DNA of 64,000 bases. Origin: Parvibaculaceae bacterium. GTDB lineage: Bacteria; Pseudomonadota; Alphaproteobacteria; Parvibaculales; Parvibaculaceae. Numbering within the stretch: position 1 is the first letter of the stretch; each line of letters starts with the position of its first letter. This document shows, one piece after another, positions 3,004 to 51,236 of the stretch. The notes under the pieces are model-generated. The model was not told the origin of the DNA and did no database searches. It worked only from the letters and a program-made list of their open reading frames with translations. The DNA is taken from assembly GCA_028283765.1 (NCBI GenBank), contig JAPWJY010000003.1, forward strand, positions 124,001 to 188,000, written 5' to 3'. A program made the translations under genes and the position numbers.

Positions 3004-3031
3004 GAAAGGGCGGCCAATGTGCCGCCCTTTC
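3004..3031 (+). terminator. Hairpin terminator after the exporter gene
   Basis: A perfect 11-bp stem (GAAAGGGCGGC at 3004-3014 with GCCGCCCTTTC at 3021-3031) closes a 6-base loop 28 bases after the stop codon. There is no long T run after the stem, so it may terminate weakly or protect the mRNA end. Confidence 0.65.
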
Positions 3032-3140
3032 AGTTGGGGAGAGCGGGGAAGGAGAGATATTTCGGAAAGTGTGCCCCCGTTCTCAGGATTGTCACTTTTC
3101 AAAAACTCATTAACCATTGACATAATGCAGTTGATCGGAT

Positions 3141-3164
3141 TACCTCTAGTCAACCGATAGACAA
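3141..3164 (+). promoter_or_regulatory. Putative Rrf2 operator in front of the regulator gene
   Basis: The motif TAC-CT-CTAGT, then CAAC, then CGAT-A-GACAA ends 6 bases before the regulator start. Nearly the same motif, with a 1-base instead of a 4-base gap, stands before the sulfate-binding-protein gene at 3632-3652. A TTGACA at 3117-3122 could be a -35 box. The repetition at two promoters of one locus suggests binding by the encoded Rrf2 protein and autoregulation (inference). Confidence 0.5.
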
Positions 3165-3170
3165 GTCAAA

Positions 3171-3614
3171 ATGTTATCTCAAAAAGCCAAATATGCTCTC
3201 AAGGCCATGCTCGCACTGTCCGGGAACGACCAAGGGTCGCTTCTGCAGGCAGCGGAGATCGCTGAGCAGCAGAACATACCGCGCAAGTTTCTTGAGCTGA
3301 TCCTGCTCGAACTTCGCAAGCATGGCTTTGTCCACAGCCATCGGGGCAAGAATGGCGGCTATACGCTGGCAAAGCCGGCGGACACCATCACGTTCGGTCA
3401 GATCATCCGGGTCATGGATGGGCCGCTGGCAGCATTGCCATGCGCAAGCCTGACCGGATATCGCCGCTGCGGGGACTGTCAGGACGAAAAGTCCTGCGCC
3501 ATCCGCAAGGCGATGCGCGAGGTTCGTGATTCGGCAGCGTTGATTCTCGACAATCTGACGCTGCAGGCGGCCTGTAGCACCGGCGCGGCGGCGACCCGTG
3601 CCCTCGTCGGCTGA
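3171..3614 (+). CDS. Rrf2-family transcriptional regulator
   Basis: This 147-residue protein has the Rrf2 winged-helix layout: MLSQKAKYALKAMLAL at the N-terminus, then a recognition region around residues 28-66 (IPRKFLELIL, SHRGKNGGYTL). Four cysteines are clustered at C91, C100, C103 and C109, spaced x8, x2, x5, with a fifth at C135. Rrf2 proteins such as IscR and NsrR hold an Fe-S cluster with a cysteine trio in this loop, although the spacing here differs from IscR. The gene lies just ahead of the sulfate ABC genes on the same strand and shares an upstream motif with them. It is therefore probably the local regulator of sulfate uptake, perhaps sensing sulfur or Fe-S status (inference). Confidence 0.88.
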   Translation: MLSQKAKYALKAMLALSGNDQGSLLQAAEIAEQQNIPRKFLELILLELRKHGFVHSHRGKNGGYTLAKPADTITFGQIIRVMDGPLAALPCASLTGYRRCGDCQDEKSCAIRKAMREVRDSAALILDNLTLQAACSTGAAATRALVG

Positions 3615-3631
3615 TTTTTTTTCGCCAAAAA

Positions 3632-3652
3632 TACAACTAGTTCGATTGACAA
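3632..3652 (+). promoter_or_regulatory. Putative Rrf2 operator in front of the sulfate-binding-protein gene
   Basis: The motif TAC-AA-CTAGT-T-CGAT-T-GACAA matches the one at 3141-3164 at all fixed positions, except that the gap between the halves is 3 bases shorter. It ends 24 bases before the chosen start at 3677. It is presumably the operator of the sulfate operon (inference). Confidence 0.5.
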
Positions 3653-3676
3653 TTGGCACTTGTGGAGACGATGACC

Positions 3677-4714
3677 ATGAAGACCTATGCCATTAACGCG
3701 CGCACAACTCTCAAGCGTGCAACCTTTATCGGTCTGGGCCTTGCCCTGCTGATGGGGCCGGCGGCTCAGGCCAGTACCGCGAAACTGCTGAATGTTTCGT
3801 ATGACCCGACCCGCGAGCTTTATCAGGAGTTCGACGCCGCCTTCGCCAAGCACTGGAAGGCGACCACGGGCGAAGATCTTTCCGTGGAAATGTCCCATGG
3901 CGGCTCGGGCAAGCAGGCCCGGTCCGTCGTGGACGGCCTTCCCGCCGATGTGGTGACGCTGGCGCTTGCGGCTGACATCGATCAGATCGCGGACCTTACC
4001 GGCAAGCTGCCCAAGGACTGGCAGAGCCAGTTCCCCGACAACAGCTCGCCCTATACGTCGACCATCGTTCTGCTGGTGCGCAAGGGAAATCCCAAGGGCA
4101 TCAAGGACTGGGGCGATCTCGTGAAGCCGGGCGTGTCGGTGATTACGCCCAATCCCAAGACATCCGGCGGCGCCCGCTGGAACTTCCTTGCCGCCTGGGC
4201 CTATGGCCTGAAGACGTTCGGCGGTGACGAGGCCAAGACCCGCGAATTCATCACGGCGCTGTTCAAGAATGTCCCGGTGCTGGATACCGGCGCACGCGGA
4301 TCGACCACCACTTTCGCCCAGCGCAATATCGGTGATGTGCTGATCTCCTGGGAAAACGAGGCCTATCTCGTCCAGAAGGAATTCCCCGGCGCATTCGAGA
4401 TCGTGAGCCCGTCCATTTCGATCCTGGCCGAGCCGCCCGTTGCCGTGGTTGATGCCAATGCCAAGGCCGATGGCGTTGAAAAGGAAGCCAAAGCCTATCT
4501 CGAATATCTTTATTCCGCAGAAGGACAGAAGATTATCGCGAAGAACTTCTATCGTCCGCGTAAGCCTGAACTGGCCGATCCCAAGGATATAGCCCGTTTC
4601 CAGAAACTGGAACTGGTGACCATCGACAAGGAATTCGGCGGCTGGCGCAAGGCCCAGAAGGACTTCTTCAGTGACGGCGGTGTTTTTGACCAGATCTACA
4701 AGAACGCCCAGTAA
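3677..4714 (+). CDS. sbp: Periplasmic sulfate-binding protein of an ABC transporter
   Basis: This 345-residue protein binds sulfate (or thiosulfate) in the periplasm and delivers it to CysTWA. The N-terminus is a Sec signal: basic residues, a hydrophobic core at about 15-28, and an AQA-S cleavage site near residue 32. The mature part carries [10 protein letters not shown] followed by [12 protein letters not shown], which resembles Sbp more than CysP, and later [13 protein letters not shown] chose ATG 3677 because GGAG at 3664-3667 sits 9 bases upstream; ATG 3671 and TTG 3653 are in-frame alternatives. It is the first gene of the transport operon, and the porin gene follows after 101 bases. 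Confidence 0.93.
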
Positions 4715-4815: not shown

Positions 4816-6231
4816 ATGAAAAAAGTTCTCACAACGGTGAGCGCCATCGCGCTGACCGCCGCTTTCACAGGACCTGCTCTGGCGGATGCGAAGACCGATG
4901 CGCAGATCGAGGCGCTGACCGCCAAGATCAACCAGATGTCCAGTACGATAGATAGCCTGCGTACGGAGGTTACCACCCTGCGCACGGAATCAGCCACCCA
5001 GAAGGAGGCGATTGCCCAGACACAGAAGGCGGCTGCATCGACCGCGACGAAGGTGAGCTTTGCCAAGGGCGCGCCGGAAATATCCGCGCCTGACGGCAGT
5101 TCGTTCAAGGTCCGCGGTCAGGTTGCGGCGGACGCCGCCTTCTTCAATTCGCGCAAGGGCGGCAACGACTACAATAACGGCACGGAAATCCGCCGGGCCC
5201 GTCTGGGTATCGATGGCACCTACACGAAGGACTGGGTTTACCGGCTCGAAGCGGATTTCGCCAAATCCAGCCGGGACGACAATTCCAGTCAGGAAATCGA
5301 CCTGAAGGATGCTTATGTCGGCTATCAGGGCATCCACAATACCAAGATCATCATCGGCCAGCAGAAGACGCCCAACACGCTGGAGCAGGCGAATTCGAGC
5401 TATGACCAGCTTTTCACCGAGATACCTCTGATGGTCGAGGCCTTCACCAACCGGCTGACTGCGGGCGGCGACTACAAGATCGGCGCGCAGGCAACCTATG
5501 AGGGCAGCAACTATCTGGTTTCTGGCGGTATCTTTGGCGAGAACTCGGCTGCCTATGGCGGGACTTCCACCACGTCGAGCGCAGCCCAAGGGGTATATCA
5601 TGACGAGGGCTGGGGACCTGCCGCCCGCTTCGTCTATACGCCGATCAAGGAACCCACCAAGCTGATCCACCTTGGCCTCTCGGGCTATTACCGCAACACG
5701 GCGGGCAAGCAGTTCGTCCAGTTCCGTTCAGGTCCTGAAGTCGATGTGGACAGCACCCGTCTGGTCGATACCGGCGCCCTCAAGGCCGATGATTACGAGT
5801 TCGGCGGTGTCGAGCTTGCCGGTGTCTATGGTCCCTTCTTCCTGCAAAGCGAATATGGCGTTACCAAGGTCGACCGGCTTACCGGCTCCAACGTTTCGTT
5901 CGGTGGCGGTTATGCCGAGGTTTCCTATACGCTCACCGGGGAATCGAAGCCTTACAAGAGCGGCGCTTTCCTGCGCACCAAGCCGAAACGCCAGTTCGAC
6001 CCGGGAGCGGGCAACTGGGGCGCATGGGAGGTGGCGGCGCGCTATAGCACCCTGGATCTCAACGACAAGGACATCAGGGGCGGCACCGAAAACAACTGGT
6101 CCCTCGGGCTTAACTGGTATCCGAATGACTATATTCGCTTTCTGGTTGACTACGTGAACTTCGATGCGAAAAGGAACGGGGTCAAGCAGGAGGGCGATGT
6201 CGTCATCACCCGGGCATCAGTCGCCTGGTAA
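4816..6231 (+). CDS. OprP/OprO-like outer-membrane porin inside the sulfate operon
   Basis: This 471-residue protein looks like a trimeric beta-barrel porin of the phosphate-selective porin O/P family. A signal peptide ends near residue 23 (PALA-DA). A coiled-coil segment follows at about 26-75, then a barrel domain with many alternating aromatic strands, ending in a C-terminal Trp as outer-membrane proteins do. In the barrel, RRARLGIDGTY and a DWVYRLEADF strand are typical of the family. The gene lies between the sulfate-binding protein and cysT, all on one strand. It probably lets sulfate or sulfonates cross the outer membrane and is made when sulfur is scarce (inference). Confidence 0.85.
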   Translation: MKKVLTTVSAIALTAAFTGPALADAKTDAQIEALTAKINQMSSTIDSLRTEVTTLRTESATQKEAIAQTQKAAASTATKVSFAKGAPEISAPDGSSFKVRGQVAADAAFFNSRKGGNDYNNGTEIRRARLGIDGTYTKDWVYRLEADFAKSSRDDNSSQEIDLKDAYVGYQGIHNTKIIIGQQKTPNTLEQANSSYDQLFTEIPLMVEAFTNRLTAGGDYKIGAQATYEGSNYLVSGGIFGENSAAYGGTSTTSSAAQGVYHDEGWGPAARFVYTPIKEPTKLIHLGLSGYYRNTAGKQFVQFRSGPEVDVDSTRLVDTGALKADDYEFGGVELAGVYGPFFLQSEYGVTKVDRLTGSNVSFGGGYAEVSYTLTGESKPYKSGAFLRTKPKRQFDPGAGNWGAWEVAARYSTLDLNDKDIRGGTENNWSLGLNWYPNDYIRFLVDYVNFDAKRNGVKQEGDVVITRASVAW

Positions 6232-6329: not shown

Positions 6330-6355
6330 TTCTGGTGTCACGAAAGAAATGCTTC

Positions 6356-7213
6356 ATGAGTTTGACAGCACCGCGACGAACACCATGGCGTAGCCCGTCC
6401 GTCCTGCCCGGCTTTGGCGTGACGTTCGGGTTCTCCATGTTCTGGCTTGGGCTGATCGTCCTCATCCCGCTGGCGGGCATCTTTACCCGGGCTGCAAGTC
6501 TGGGACTATCCGACTTCTTCACCATTCTGGTGGATCCGCGCATTCTGGAGGCTCTGAAGCTGAGCTTTGGCGGCGCGTTGATCGGCGCCCTCATCAACAC
6601 GCTTGTCGGTCCCGTCGTGGCCTGGGTGCTGGTCCGGTATGAGTTCTATGGCCGGGGCATCGTGGATGCGGTCATCGACCTGCCCTTCGCGCTGCCGACC
6701 GCCGTGGCCGGTCTGGCGCTTGCCGCGCTTTATGCGCCCAATGGCTGGCTTGGCGCGCCACTGGCCGATGCCGGCATCAAGGTTCTCTTCACGCCGCTGG
6801 GCGTCATCATTGCGCTCACCTTTATCGGACTTCCGTTCGTGGTGCGTACGCTTCAGCCAGTGCTGGCCGATCTGGAGCCTGAAATAGAAGAGGCGGCGGC
6901 GACACTGGGGGCCTCGCGCTGGCAGACGATCCGCAAGATCCTGCTCCCGGCCCTGTTGCCGACGCTGCTGACCGGCTTTGCGCTCGCCTTCGCCCGCGCT
7001 GTGGGCGAATACGGCTCCGTTATCTTTATTGCAGGCAATCTGCCCTACAAGTCGGAGATCGCGCCGCTTTTGATCATCATCAAGCTTGAGGAATTCAATT
7101 ATCCGGCAGCGACCGCCATTGCGGCGATCATGCTGGTCATGTCCTTCCTGATCCTCCTGATCGTCAATCTTCTGCAGGGCTGGGCGCGCCGCCGCACCGG
7201 CTATGCGGGCTAG
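6356..7213 (+). CDS. cysT: Sulfate ABC transporter permease CysT
   Basis: This inner-membrane permease subunit has about 285 residues and some six hydrophobic segments, from FGFSMFWLGLIVLIPLAGIF near the N-terminus onwards. The EAA loop that contacts the ATPase (EEAAATLGASRWQTIRKILL) lies near residues 177-197. The frame is open from GTG 6335, but ATG 6356 fits the family's N-terminus better. It pairs with CysW to form the channel for sulfate or thiosulfate. The CysW reading frame follows after 10 bases, so the two are translated from one mRNA. Confidence 0.95.
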   Translation: MSLTAPRRTPWRSPSVLPGFGVTFGFSMFWLGLIVLIPLAGIFTRAASLGLSDFFTILVDPRILEALKLSFGGALIGALINTLVGPVVAWVLVRYEFYGRGIVDAVIDLPFALPTAVAGLALAALYAPNGWLGAPLADAGIKVLFTPLGVIIALTFIGLPFVVRTLQPVLADLEPEIEEAAATLGASRWQTIRKILLPALLPTLLTGFALAFARAVGEYGSVIFIAGNLPYKSEIAPLLIIIKLEEFNYPAATAIAAIMLVMSFLILLIVNLLQGWARRRTGYAG

Positions 7214-7223
7214 GAGGGGACCC

Positions 7224-8087
7224 ATGCAATTCATCTCGACATCCCCGCGGCTCGCCAATGTGAGCGAGCCCCTGACGGTGCGGTTTCTGCTGCTTGGCCT
7301 GACGCTGGTCTATCTTCTGGCCATGCTGGTCCTGCCGCTGGGCGTCATCTTCGTCGAGGCGTTCCGCAAGGGTTATGAAACCTATGCGGCTTCGCTGCTG
7401 ACGGACGATTCCATCGCCGCCATCCAGCTCACCCTGCTGGTTGCGGCCATTGCCGTGCCGGCCAACGTCGTCTTCGGGCTGGCCGCGTCCTGGTCCATCG
7501 CCAAATATGACTTCAAGGGCAAGAGCTTCCTGATCACGCTGATCGACCTGCCCTTTTCGGTGTCGCCGGTGGTGGCGGGTCTCATCTATGTGCTGATGTT
7601 CGGGGCGCAGGGCTATCTCGGCCCCTATCTTCAGGCCCATCATATCCAGATCATCTTCGCCGTGCCGGGCATCGTGCTCGCCACCATCTTCGTGACCTTT
7701 CCGTTCGTCGCCCGCCAGCTCATTCCGCTGATGCAGGCGCAGGGCAGCGACGACGAGGAAGCCGCGCTCTCGCTGGGAGCCAGCGGTCTTCGCACCTTCT
7801 TCAGCGTGACGCTGCCCAATGTGCGCTGGGCGCTCCTTTATGGCGTGTTGCTCTGCAATGCCAGGGCAATGGGCGAATTCGGCGCCGTGTCGATCGTTTC
7901 GGGGCATATCCGGGGCAAAACCAACACCATGCCACTACATGTGGAGATCCTCTACAATGAGTACAATTTCGTTGCCGCGTTTGCCGTTGCGTCGCTCCTC
8001 GCGTTCCTCGCGCTCGTTACACTCGGTCTCAAATCCGCGCTCGAATGGCGCTATGGTGGTGAACTTGCGGTCTCAAGAGGGCATTGA
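7224..8087 (+). CDS. cysW: Sulfate ABC transporter permease CysW
   Basis: This is the second permease half, 287 residues and largely hydrophobic. Its EAA loop (EEAALSLGASGLRTFFSV) is near residues 177-195, the same place as in CysT. The end of the protein carries the family's HVEILYNEYNFVAAF stretch. I start it at ATG 7224 because AGGAGGGG (7212-7219) lies right before it; ATG 7203 would overlap cysT. cysA begins 13 bases downstream. Confidence 0.95.
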   Translation: MQFISTSPRLANVSEPLTVRFLLLGLTLVYLLAMLVLPLGVIFVEAFRKGYETYAASLLTDDSIAAIQLTLLVAAIAVPANVVFGLAASWSIAKYDFKGKSFLITLIDLPFSVSPVVAGLIYVLMFGAQGYLGPYLQAHHIQIIFAVPGIVLATIFVTFPFVARQLIPLMQAQGSDDEEAALSLGASGLRTFFSVTLPNVRWALLYGVLLCNARAMGEFGAVSIVSGHIRGKTNTMPLHVEILYNEYNFVAAFAVASLLAFLALVTLGLKSALEWRYGGELAVSRGH

Positions 8088-8100
8088 GGAAGTGACGAGC

Positions 8101-9183
8101 GTGGATGTGACTGAAAAGAGTGCGCCGATCCGCATCGATGTGAAGGATCTTCGCAAGAGTTTTGGCGCCTTTGCCGCTCTCGACGGGGTTTCCTTCACAG
8201 TGCAGCCGGGAGAGTTGCTGGCGCTGCTGGGGCCGTCGGGCTCCGGCAAGACGACGCTGCTGCGCGCCATTGCCGGGCTTTCGCCCGCCGAGCAGGGCAC
8301 GATCCATTTCAATGACGAGGATGCGACCACCTTGTCGCTGCGTGAGCGCCGGGTCGGCTTCGTGTTCCAGCACTATGCGCTGTTCCGTCATATGACCGTG
8401 TTCGACAATATCGCTTTCGGGCTGCGGGTGCGGCCAAGGCGTGAACGGCCCGCCGAAAGCGAGATCACGCAGAGAGCGCGGCGGCTGCTTGAGTTCGTTC
8501 AACTGGGCGGACTCGAAAAGCGCTTTCCGGCACAATTGTCGGGCGGCCAACGCCAGCGGGTCGCTCTGGCGCGCGCGCTTGCCATCGAACCCAATCTGCT
8601 GCTGCTCGATGAGCCTTTCGGGGCGCTCGATGCGAAGGTCCGCAAGGAACTGCGGGCATGGCTCAAGGACGTGCATCGCGAAACCGGCCTGACCACGCTT
8701 TTTGTTACCCATGACCAGGAGGAGGCGCTGGAGCTTGCCGACCGGGTCGTGATCATGCGCAATGGCAGGATCGAACAGATCGGCACCCCTTCGGAAGTCT
8801 ACGAGGAGCCGGCGACGCCTTTCGTCTGTGAATTTCTGGGCAATGTCTCGAAGTTCGATTGCACCATCCGGGATGGCGAGGCGGAGGTGGCCGGGAGCCT
8901 GTTCCCGGTTGGCGAGGAAAATGGCCTGAACGGTCCGGGCGTCGCCTATGTGCGGCCCCATGAGTTCGAAATCGTGATCGATGAGCATGGCGAGGGCCTG
9001 CCCGCCACGGTCAAGTCGGTTCGCCCCTTCGGGCCTACCGTATCGGTCGAACTGGTGCTTGCCGGGCGCGACGGCCCCATTGAAATCGCCGTGCCAAGGG
9101 AACTGATCGGGCTCGGCGATGTCCAGCCCCACCGGGTCGTCCATATCCGGGCGACGGCCGCCCGGATTTTCGCTGCGGGCTGA
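8101..9183 (+). CDS. cysA: Sulfate ABC transporter ATPase CysA
   Basis: This cytoplasmic ATPase drives the CysTW permease. The 360-residue protein shows Walker A GPSGSGKTT near residues 44-52, the Q-loop FVFQHYALF, the ABC signature LSGGQRQR near 147, Walker B LLLLDEPFGALD near 166, and the switch His in FVTHDQEEA near 202. The C-terminal 120 residues form the regulatory TOBE-like part. The frame is open far upstream inside cysW, but GTG 8101 follows a GAGGA site at 8086-8090 by 10 bases and gives the normal length. A hairpin after the stop ends the operon. Confidence 0.94.
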   Translation: MDVTEKSAPIRIDVKDLRKSFGAFAALDGVSFTVQPGELLALLGPSGSGKTTLLRAIAGLSPAEQGTIHFNDEDATTLSLRERRVGFVFQHYALFRHMTVFDNIAFGLRVRPRRERPAESEITQRARRLLEFVQLGGLEKRFPAQLSGGQRQRVALARALAIEPNLLLLDEPFGALDAKVRKELRAWLKDVHRETGLTTLFVTHDQEEALELADRVVIMRNGRIEQIGTPSEVYEEPATPFVCEFLGNVSKFDCTIRDGEAEVAGSLFPVGEENGLNGPGVAYVRPHEFEIVIDEHGEGLPATVKSVRPFGPTVSVELVLAGRDGPIEIAVPRELIGLGDVQPHRVVHIRATAARIFAAG

Positions 9184-50387: not shown

Positions 50388-51236
50388 TTAGGGAAGATTC
50401 TCGATTCTCTGCTTTAAAGACAGGAAATCGCGCCAGGCAAAGCGTTTCTGCGCGGGCTGGCGCAGCAGATAGGCGGGGTGGAAAACGGGCAGCGCGGGCA
50501 CGTCGCGGCTGCCGATTCGATAGCTGGTCCAGCGCCCGCGGAGCTTCATGATGCCTTCCGGCGTATTGAGCATCTGCTTGGCCGAGACGCCGCCGAGAAA
50601 GACCAGAACGGCGGGATCGACCAGTTCGATCTGGCGTTCGATGAAGGGCATGCAGACCGCCTGCTCGGCAGGGGTCGGGGTGCGGTTGCCTGGCGGCCGC
50701 CAGGGCAGCACGTTGGCGATATAGACCTTCGTGCGGTCAAGGCCGATGGCCGCCAGCATCCGGTCCAGCAACTGCCCCGACACGCCGACGAAGGGCCGGC
50801 CCTGAATATCCTCGTCGCGGCCCGGAGCCTCGCCGACCAGCATGATCCGGGCCTCGGGATTGCCGTCCGAAAAGACGAGGTTCTTGGCCGTGAACTTGAG
50901 GGCGCAGCCGTCATAGGCGGCAAGGGCCTCCCTCAGTTCGTCGAGATTCTGGCAGCGCGCGGCGATGTCGCGGGCGATGCCGGCGGAGGCGTCCTGCTCC
51001 AGCGGTATCGTTTTGGGCGTGCCGGCAGCCGGGGATGCCGCCCGTCCGGCAGGAGGCGTGCGTGCAGGCTCGGGTGCGGCGGAGGGCACGGCGTTCTGTG
51101 GCGGCTTGGGGGCGAGCGCATAGCGGTCGACAGGCGCGTCCGAGAGCGCCTCGGTCACCCCGGCGGCGGCATAATACTGGAGGAGGGCGATGGCCTCCGC
51201 CCGGCTGATATTCAAGGGATCCGTGCTGTCCTGCAT
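50388..51236 (-). CDS. Uracil-DNA glycosylase, family 4-like
   Basis: This 282-residue protein removes uracil from DNA. It has an N-terminal low-complexity part (about 1-80, Pro/Ala rich), then motif [18 protein letters not shown] near 129-146, [18 protein letters not shown] near 166-183 and the C-terminal motif [15 protein letters not shown] near 250. Family 4 enzymes bind a 4Fe-4S cluster through four Cys. Here, by comparison with Thermotoga UDG, one position of the first Cys pair is Tyr, and the Cys after the second block (KCRPP in that enzyme) is Trp, leaving only two of the four. The cluster may therefore be lost. This is inference from a remembered alignment. Confidence 0.85.

Follow-up and report, generated by a model that had tools for sequence, protein, structure and literature searches.

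A 25-bp operator predicted at an Rrf2 regulator gene and a sulfate uptake operon in Parvibaculaceae

Introduction

Control of cysteine supply by an Rrf2-type protein is known from CymR, the global cysteine regulator of Bacillus subtilis and Staphylococcus aureus, which works with CysK and O-acetylserine and is not known to have an Fe-S cluster. IscR, RirA and NsrR are Fe-S regulators of the Rrf2 type; E. coli IscR has the cysteine spacing CX5CX5C, and IscR acts as an activator at some of its targets. The LysR-type proteins CysB and Cbl of gamma- and betaproteobacteria control sulfate transport and taurine dioxygenase genes. Genome annotation systems also describe Rrf2-family proteins as predicted regulators in connection with sulfate transport. 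In Rhodococcus, the annotation of the Rrf2-family protein IGTS8_peg394 predicts that it regulates sulfate adenylyltransferase (PMC8557817). A search of the open literature, with most subscription journals and regulon databases outside its scope, turned up no Rrf2 protein that regulates sulfate uptake in this class; the alphaproteobacterial Rrf2 family treated here, its operator and its target set are undescribed there, and a prior prediction elsewhere is possible.

The locus described here lies in a 64-kb window of a Parvibaculaceae genome, the window being the whole stretch of DNA that was analysed. Its sequence and that of its relatives suggest that it is probably an autoregulated sulfur-supply switch, in which the Rrf2 protein would sit on two operators and repress when sulfur is sufficient.

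Organization of the locus

The gene order is rrf2, sulfate-binding protein (sbp), Porin_O_P porin, cysT, cysW and cysA, all on the plus strand. The rrf2 gene (3171–3614) encodes a protein of 147 residues with cysteines at positions 91, 100, 103 and 109. The substrate-binding protein of the sulfate ABC transporter (3671–4714, with the start at 3671 or 3677) scores 469 bits against NF008022, above the cutoff, and the outer-membrane porin within the operon (4816–6231) scores 222 bits against PF07396. The permeases CysT (6335–7213; TIGR02139, 394 bits; start perhaps further downstream) and CysW (7227–8087; TIGR02140, 394 bits; start codon not fixed) and the ATPase CysA (8089–9183; TIGR00968, 363 bits; start codon approximate) are all above their cutoffs. 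The porin suggests a dedicated outer-membrane route for sulfate. A Porin_O_P porin is found inside the sulfate operon in many, not all, relatives.

Between an RND-type transporter gene and rrf2, at about 3004–3032, there is a hairpin, GAAAGGGCGGC-n-GCCGCCCTTTC, with no clear T-run, which is probably a terminator or an attenuating hairpin. No Rfam family and no tandem repeat was found in the window.

Structure of the operator

The sequence-only reading had described a motif of two blocks, TACnnCTAGT and CGATnGACAA, with a central gap of 4 bases before rrf2 and 1 base before sbp. Both copies are present as quoted, TACCTCTAGT-CAAC-CGATAGACAA at 3141–3164 and TACAACTAGT-T-CGATTGACAA at 3632–3652, and a scan of both strands of the 64-kb window with TACnnCTAGT-n(0–10)-CGATnGACAA finds these two copies only. 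The places are therefore right, but the shape was misread. The fixed bases number 17 (8 + 9) instead of 19, and the resemblance is not improbable by chance when the bare pair is considered, because 106 of 1000 dinucleotide shuffles reach the score of 11.5 that the two intergenic regions give in a gapped local alignment. On the basis of this shuffle test, the idea that the pair is significant by itself was rejected. For the half-motif CGATnGACAA, the genome has 22 copies, compared with 10 of a reversed control; as a −35 box it was rejected, since its spacing to the start codon disallows this role for both genes.

The shape of the operator was settled by comparison with relatives. The sbp site of a same-genus relative, CGACTAATTCGATTGACAA, differs from the Parvibaculum site CTACTAATTTGATCGACAA at 3 of 19 positions without any gap, and the Parvibaculum forms, such as TACCCTACTTAACAGATAGACAA before rrf2 and CACTACTAATTTGATCGACAA before sbp, have constant spacing. 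The variable gap is thus a misregister, and the gapped two-block motif was rejected in favor of an ungapped one. Each copy is read here as one 25-bp operator of fixed spacing with the ideal form AATCTCTAnTnnnnnAnTAGAGATT. Predicted operator 1 (TACCTCTAGTCAACCGATAGACAAG, 3141–3165) overlaps the predicted −10 region and lies 5 bp upstream of the start codon of rrf2, and predicted operator 2 (AAATACAACTAGTTCGATTGACAAT, 3629–3653) lies upstream of the sulfate operon, between rrf2 and sbp; neither is assigned to a strand.

The operator is an imperfect palindrome with the core CTAnn-n5-nnTAG. In an ungapped alignment of 33 sites over 25 columns, A7, GAT at columns 15–17 and G19 are invariant. Dyad matches average 5.76 of 12 over the set, compared with 3.41 in shuffles, the largest of 1000 shuffle means being 4.12. 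Better palindromes, for example ATTCTCTATTAACCCTATAGAGATT, occupy the same positions in other orders, and the two sites of the window are weak ones, each matching at 4 of 12 dyad positions.

The Rrf2 protein

The regulator belongs to the Rrf2 superfamily, scoring 133 bits against PF02082 (cutoff 30) and 120.6 bits against TIGR00738 (cutoff 73.3). Its AlphaFold2 model, with a mean pLDDT of 80.5 and low values around the cysteine loop, shows a winged-helix fold and a long C-terminal helix and is closest to CymR, then to IscR; since the fold matches both, it does not discriminate between them. The protein is 97% identical to its same-genus ortholog and 71–79% identical to most Parvibaculum orthologs. 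The cysteine cluster that the sequence-only reading had pointed out is borne out by all orthologs compared: the four cysteines are invariant as CX8CX2CX5C in 80 of 80, so that binding of a metal or a cluster by them is plausible. The equivalog models of CymR (NF047409, 73 bits against a cutoff of 195), NsrR (NF008240, 56.5 against 182), IscR (TIGR02010, 78 against 207.55) and RirA (NF008886, 56 against 193) are missed by a wide margin. Nor does the rrf2 gene head an isc or suf operon, the next genes being sbp–porin–cysTWA.

The invariant cysteines and a predicted fold that matches IscR too would also suit an IscR/RirA-like protein whose main task is to sense Fe-S or redox status, and which has sulfate uptake among its outputs since sulfur is required for Fe-S assembly. 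However, the scores for IscR and RirA are far under the cutoffs, no isc/suf or iron-uptake gene adjoins the motif in the loci read, and the targets found serve in sulfur scavenging. Such a sensor is therefore regarded as an unlikely alternative. The likeliest reading of the protein is a repressor of the Rrf2 type that controls sulfur acquisition, functionally CymR-like and outside the CymR and IscR families.

Promoter architecture

Upstream of rrf2, the predicted −35 box TTGACA (3117–3122, plus strand) is followed by an 18-bp spacer and by TACCTC at 3141. Among 35 loci of relatives inspected, TTGAC is located 22–24 bp before the operator in all 30 that have an operator before rrf2, and no such TTGAC is present in the five that do not. 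A simple promoter scan left this conserved promoter unflagged, its single match being another, non-conserved one. Since the predicted −10 region falls within operator 1, at this distance from the conserved TTGAC, repression, including self-repression, is the likeliest mode, and operator 1, when occupied, should block the rrf2 promoter. No clear −35 box was identified in the sbp promoter, and TACTAA(T) inside the Parvibaculum sbp sites could be its −10 box.

An sbp site without a recognisable upstream −35 box, together with the systematic difference between TACCCTACTTAACAGATAGACAA before rrf2 and CACTACTAATTTGATCGACAA before sbp, could instead reflect a dual regulator that binds both sites, represses its own gene and activates sbp, as IscR activates some targets. 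However, the possible −10 box TACTAA(T) within the sbp operator favors occlusion, and no activator-type spacing to any downstream promoter was found, which makes dual regulation quite unlikely.

Conservation and co-occurrence

The palindromic matrix was first obtained by searching iteratively through the promoters of these same gene sets, and those scores are partly circular. A symmetric hold-out matrix was therefore trained only on sites outside the family. Over the roughly 64,000 positions of the window, this matrix places the site at 3629 first and that at 3141 third, both in the ungapped register. In each of the 15 Parvibaculaceae contigs examined, the rrf2 and sbp promoters take the two highest ranks. 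The motif is thus conserved upstream of both orthologous genes, the point on which the sequence-only reading had offered itself for refutation. The second rank in the window is taken by a palindrome-like match at 50404, ATTCTCTGCTTTAAAGACAGGAAAT, with a score level with known operators.

A search of the genome and of related genomes, which that reading had also proposed, was made with a family-tuned model that uses sequence only and whose training includes the sites of the window. It matches only these two places in the 3.24-Mb genome (E ≤ 10) and finds the equivalent two sites in genomes G011, G024, G022 and G019; in G015 there is a third, weaker match (L133), treated as probable chance. Relatives without an rrf2 ortholog give no match or chance-level matches only. 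The broad model R2 finds no match in the genome of the window at E ≤ 10, probably because the symmetrised model is too unspecific for these diverged sites, and a class-wide R2 search gave few matches.

The regulator and the transporter are also lost together: sbp is absent from 14 of the 15 other family genomes searched (E ≤ 1e-30; for example, G003, G006 and G013), and the same 14 genomes lack a close rrf2 ortholog. In the exception, G028, rrf2 and sbp are on different contigs, and two operator-like palindromes lie upstream of sbp. Sulfate ABC genes are located downstream in 44 of 80 rrf2 loci. Outside the order, about half of the rrf2 homologs, for example those of Acidocella and many Azospirillum, lack both the operator and neighboring sulfate genes, suggesting that some homologs may have other roles. 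Conservation of the motif, together with the co-occurrence and joint loss of regulator, motif and transporter, gives computational support to the view that the Rrf2 protein regulates its own gene and the neighboring sulfate uptake operon.

A different regulator might instead bind the motif and leave Rrf2 a bystander, but this is very improbable, as most of the loci examined that show sulfate synteny have the motif in front of rrf2 itself and relatives without the ortholog give no or chance-level matches. That the similarity of the two sites is due to chance or to shared promoter elements alone is hardly credible: the shuffles that match the bare-pair score and the partial coincidence of operator 1 with the predicted −10 box would allow it, but it is strongly contradicted by conservation across orders, by recovery with the hold-out matrix and by the motif before unlinked sulfur genes.

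Wider candidate targets

Searching further alphaproteobacterial genomes for the motif, together with matches in fetched loci, gave a wider set of candidate targets, with a model that had no sulfur theme built in beyond the sulfate operon. The matches are individually weak (E of about 0.05–2), those in L055 and L057 coming from matrix scores. The motif is found before TauD-type taurine dioxygenase genes (L145 and L148, above the curated cutoff, and L138, below it), before an sbp gene far from rrf2 (L151), before genes for an NtaA/DmoA-type monooxygenase (L141) and a TauE/SafE exporter (L168), and in an intergenic region of L146 that has a rhodanese-domain gene on one side and a LysR/choline-sulfatase pair on the other. 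In Rhizomicrobium electricum (L055, 10451–11693), a strong operator precedes the serine acetyltransferase gene cysE, to which an rrf2 paralog is convergent. Another rrf2 of this species adjoins porin–sbp–cysTWA (L100). In an alphaproteobacterial MAG (L057, 3000–7500), operator-like sites precede a gene resembling that of a TonB-dependent receptor as well as an arylsulfatase-like gene, the two genes flanking an anaerobic sulfatase maturase. No sulfur gene stands beside the motif at L137, L143, L144 and L147, and about one third of the R2 matches have no obvious adjoining sulfur gene.

The genome of the window has a second sulfate ABC operon outside the window (G000:C3:1386675-1387679; L136 and L152), whose sbp2 is 52% identical. 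A weaker palindrome, TTTCCCTATCGGAAATATATACATT, lies about 87 bp upstream of this operon, and a sister species keeps the block as TTTCCCTATCAGTTTTATATACATT with different flanks. As such a score is expected about once per simulated 3.2-Mb genome, a palindrome in one short promoter is suggestive, and it suggests that the second operon may be under shared control.

There is the tentative possibility, on the less likely side, that the protein represents an unnamed and widespread master regulator of Alphaproteobacteria, a four-cysteine and probably Fe-S-binding Rrf2 repressor that acts through its palindromic operator on sulfate import, on taurine dioxygenases and sulfatases, and on cysteine synthesis. 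If so, the cell would read its sulfur supply through a cluster and not through a LysR-type metabolite sensor.

Model of sulfur-responsive control

The sites, their conservation, register and position, the synteny, the joint loss and the occurrence of the motif in front of further sulfur genes elsewhere were computed; the Rrf2 protein as the binder, repression as the mode and cellular sulfur as the signal are what we infer. In the proposed mechanism, the Rrf2 protein, presumably as a dimer, would bind the 25-bp imperfect palindrome, one copy of which overlaps the predicted −10 region of the rrf2 promoter, the other lying between rrf2 and sbp. When sulfur is sufficient, bound Rrf2 would most likely block RNA polymerase at both promoters. 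When sulfur or cysteine is scarce, Rrf2 would release the DNA, thereby allowing expression of the sbp–porin–cysTWA operon. The signal would be cellular sulfur, possibly sensed by the four conserved cysteines through a cluster or through thiol chemistry. The operator and the target list make this idea directly testable in culturable Parvibaculum, Dongia and Azospirillum.

Comparison with known systems

Rhodococcus IGTS8_peg394 is likewise an Rrf2 protein proposed to control sulfur metabolism, but it is actinobacterial, and the passages of PMC8557817 that concern it rest on annotation and proteomics and give no operator. CysB and Cbl have the same kinds of targets as those predicted here but belong to an unrelated protein family. 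IscR, RirA and NsrR have the Rrf2 fold in common with the present protein, and their cysteine cluster lies in the corresponding region, whereas the targets seen here are for sulfur acquisition and not for Fe-S assembly, iron or NO, and the cysteine spacing is CX8CX2CX5C instead of that of E. coli IscR. CymR is the best structural match, sharing the Rrf2 fold and the regulation of sulfur and cysteine supply genes, which is predicted for the present protein; unlike CymR, the latter has the four-cysteine motif, an alphaproteobacterial host and synteny with sulfate ABC genes. The locus would offer a natural comparison between CymR-like sulfur sensing through an effector and IscR-like sensing through a cluster.
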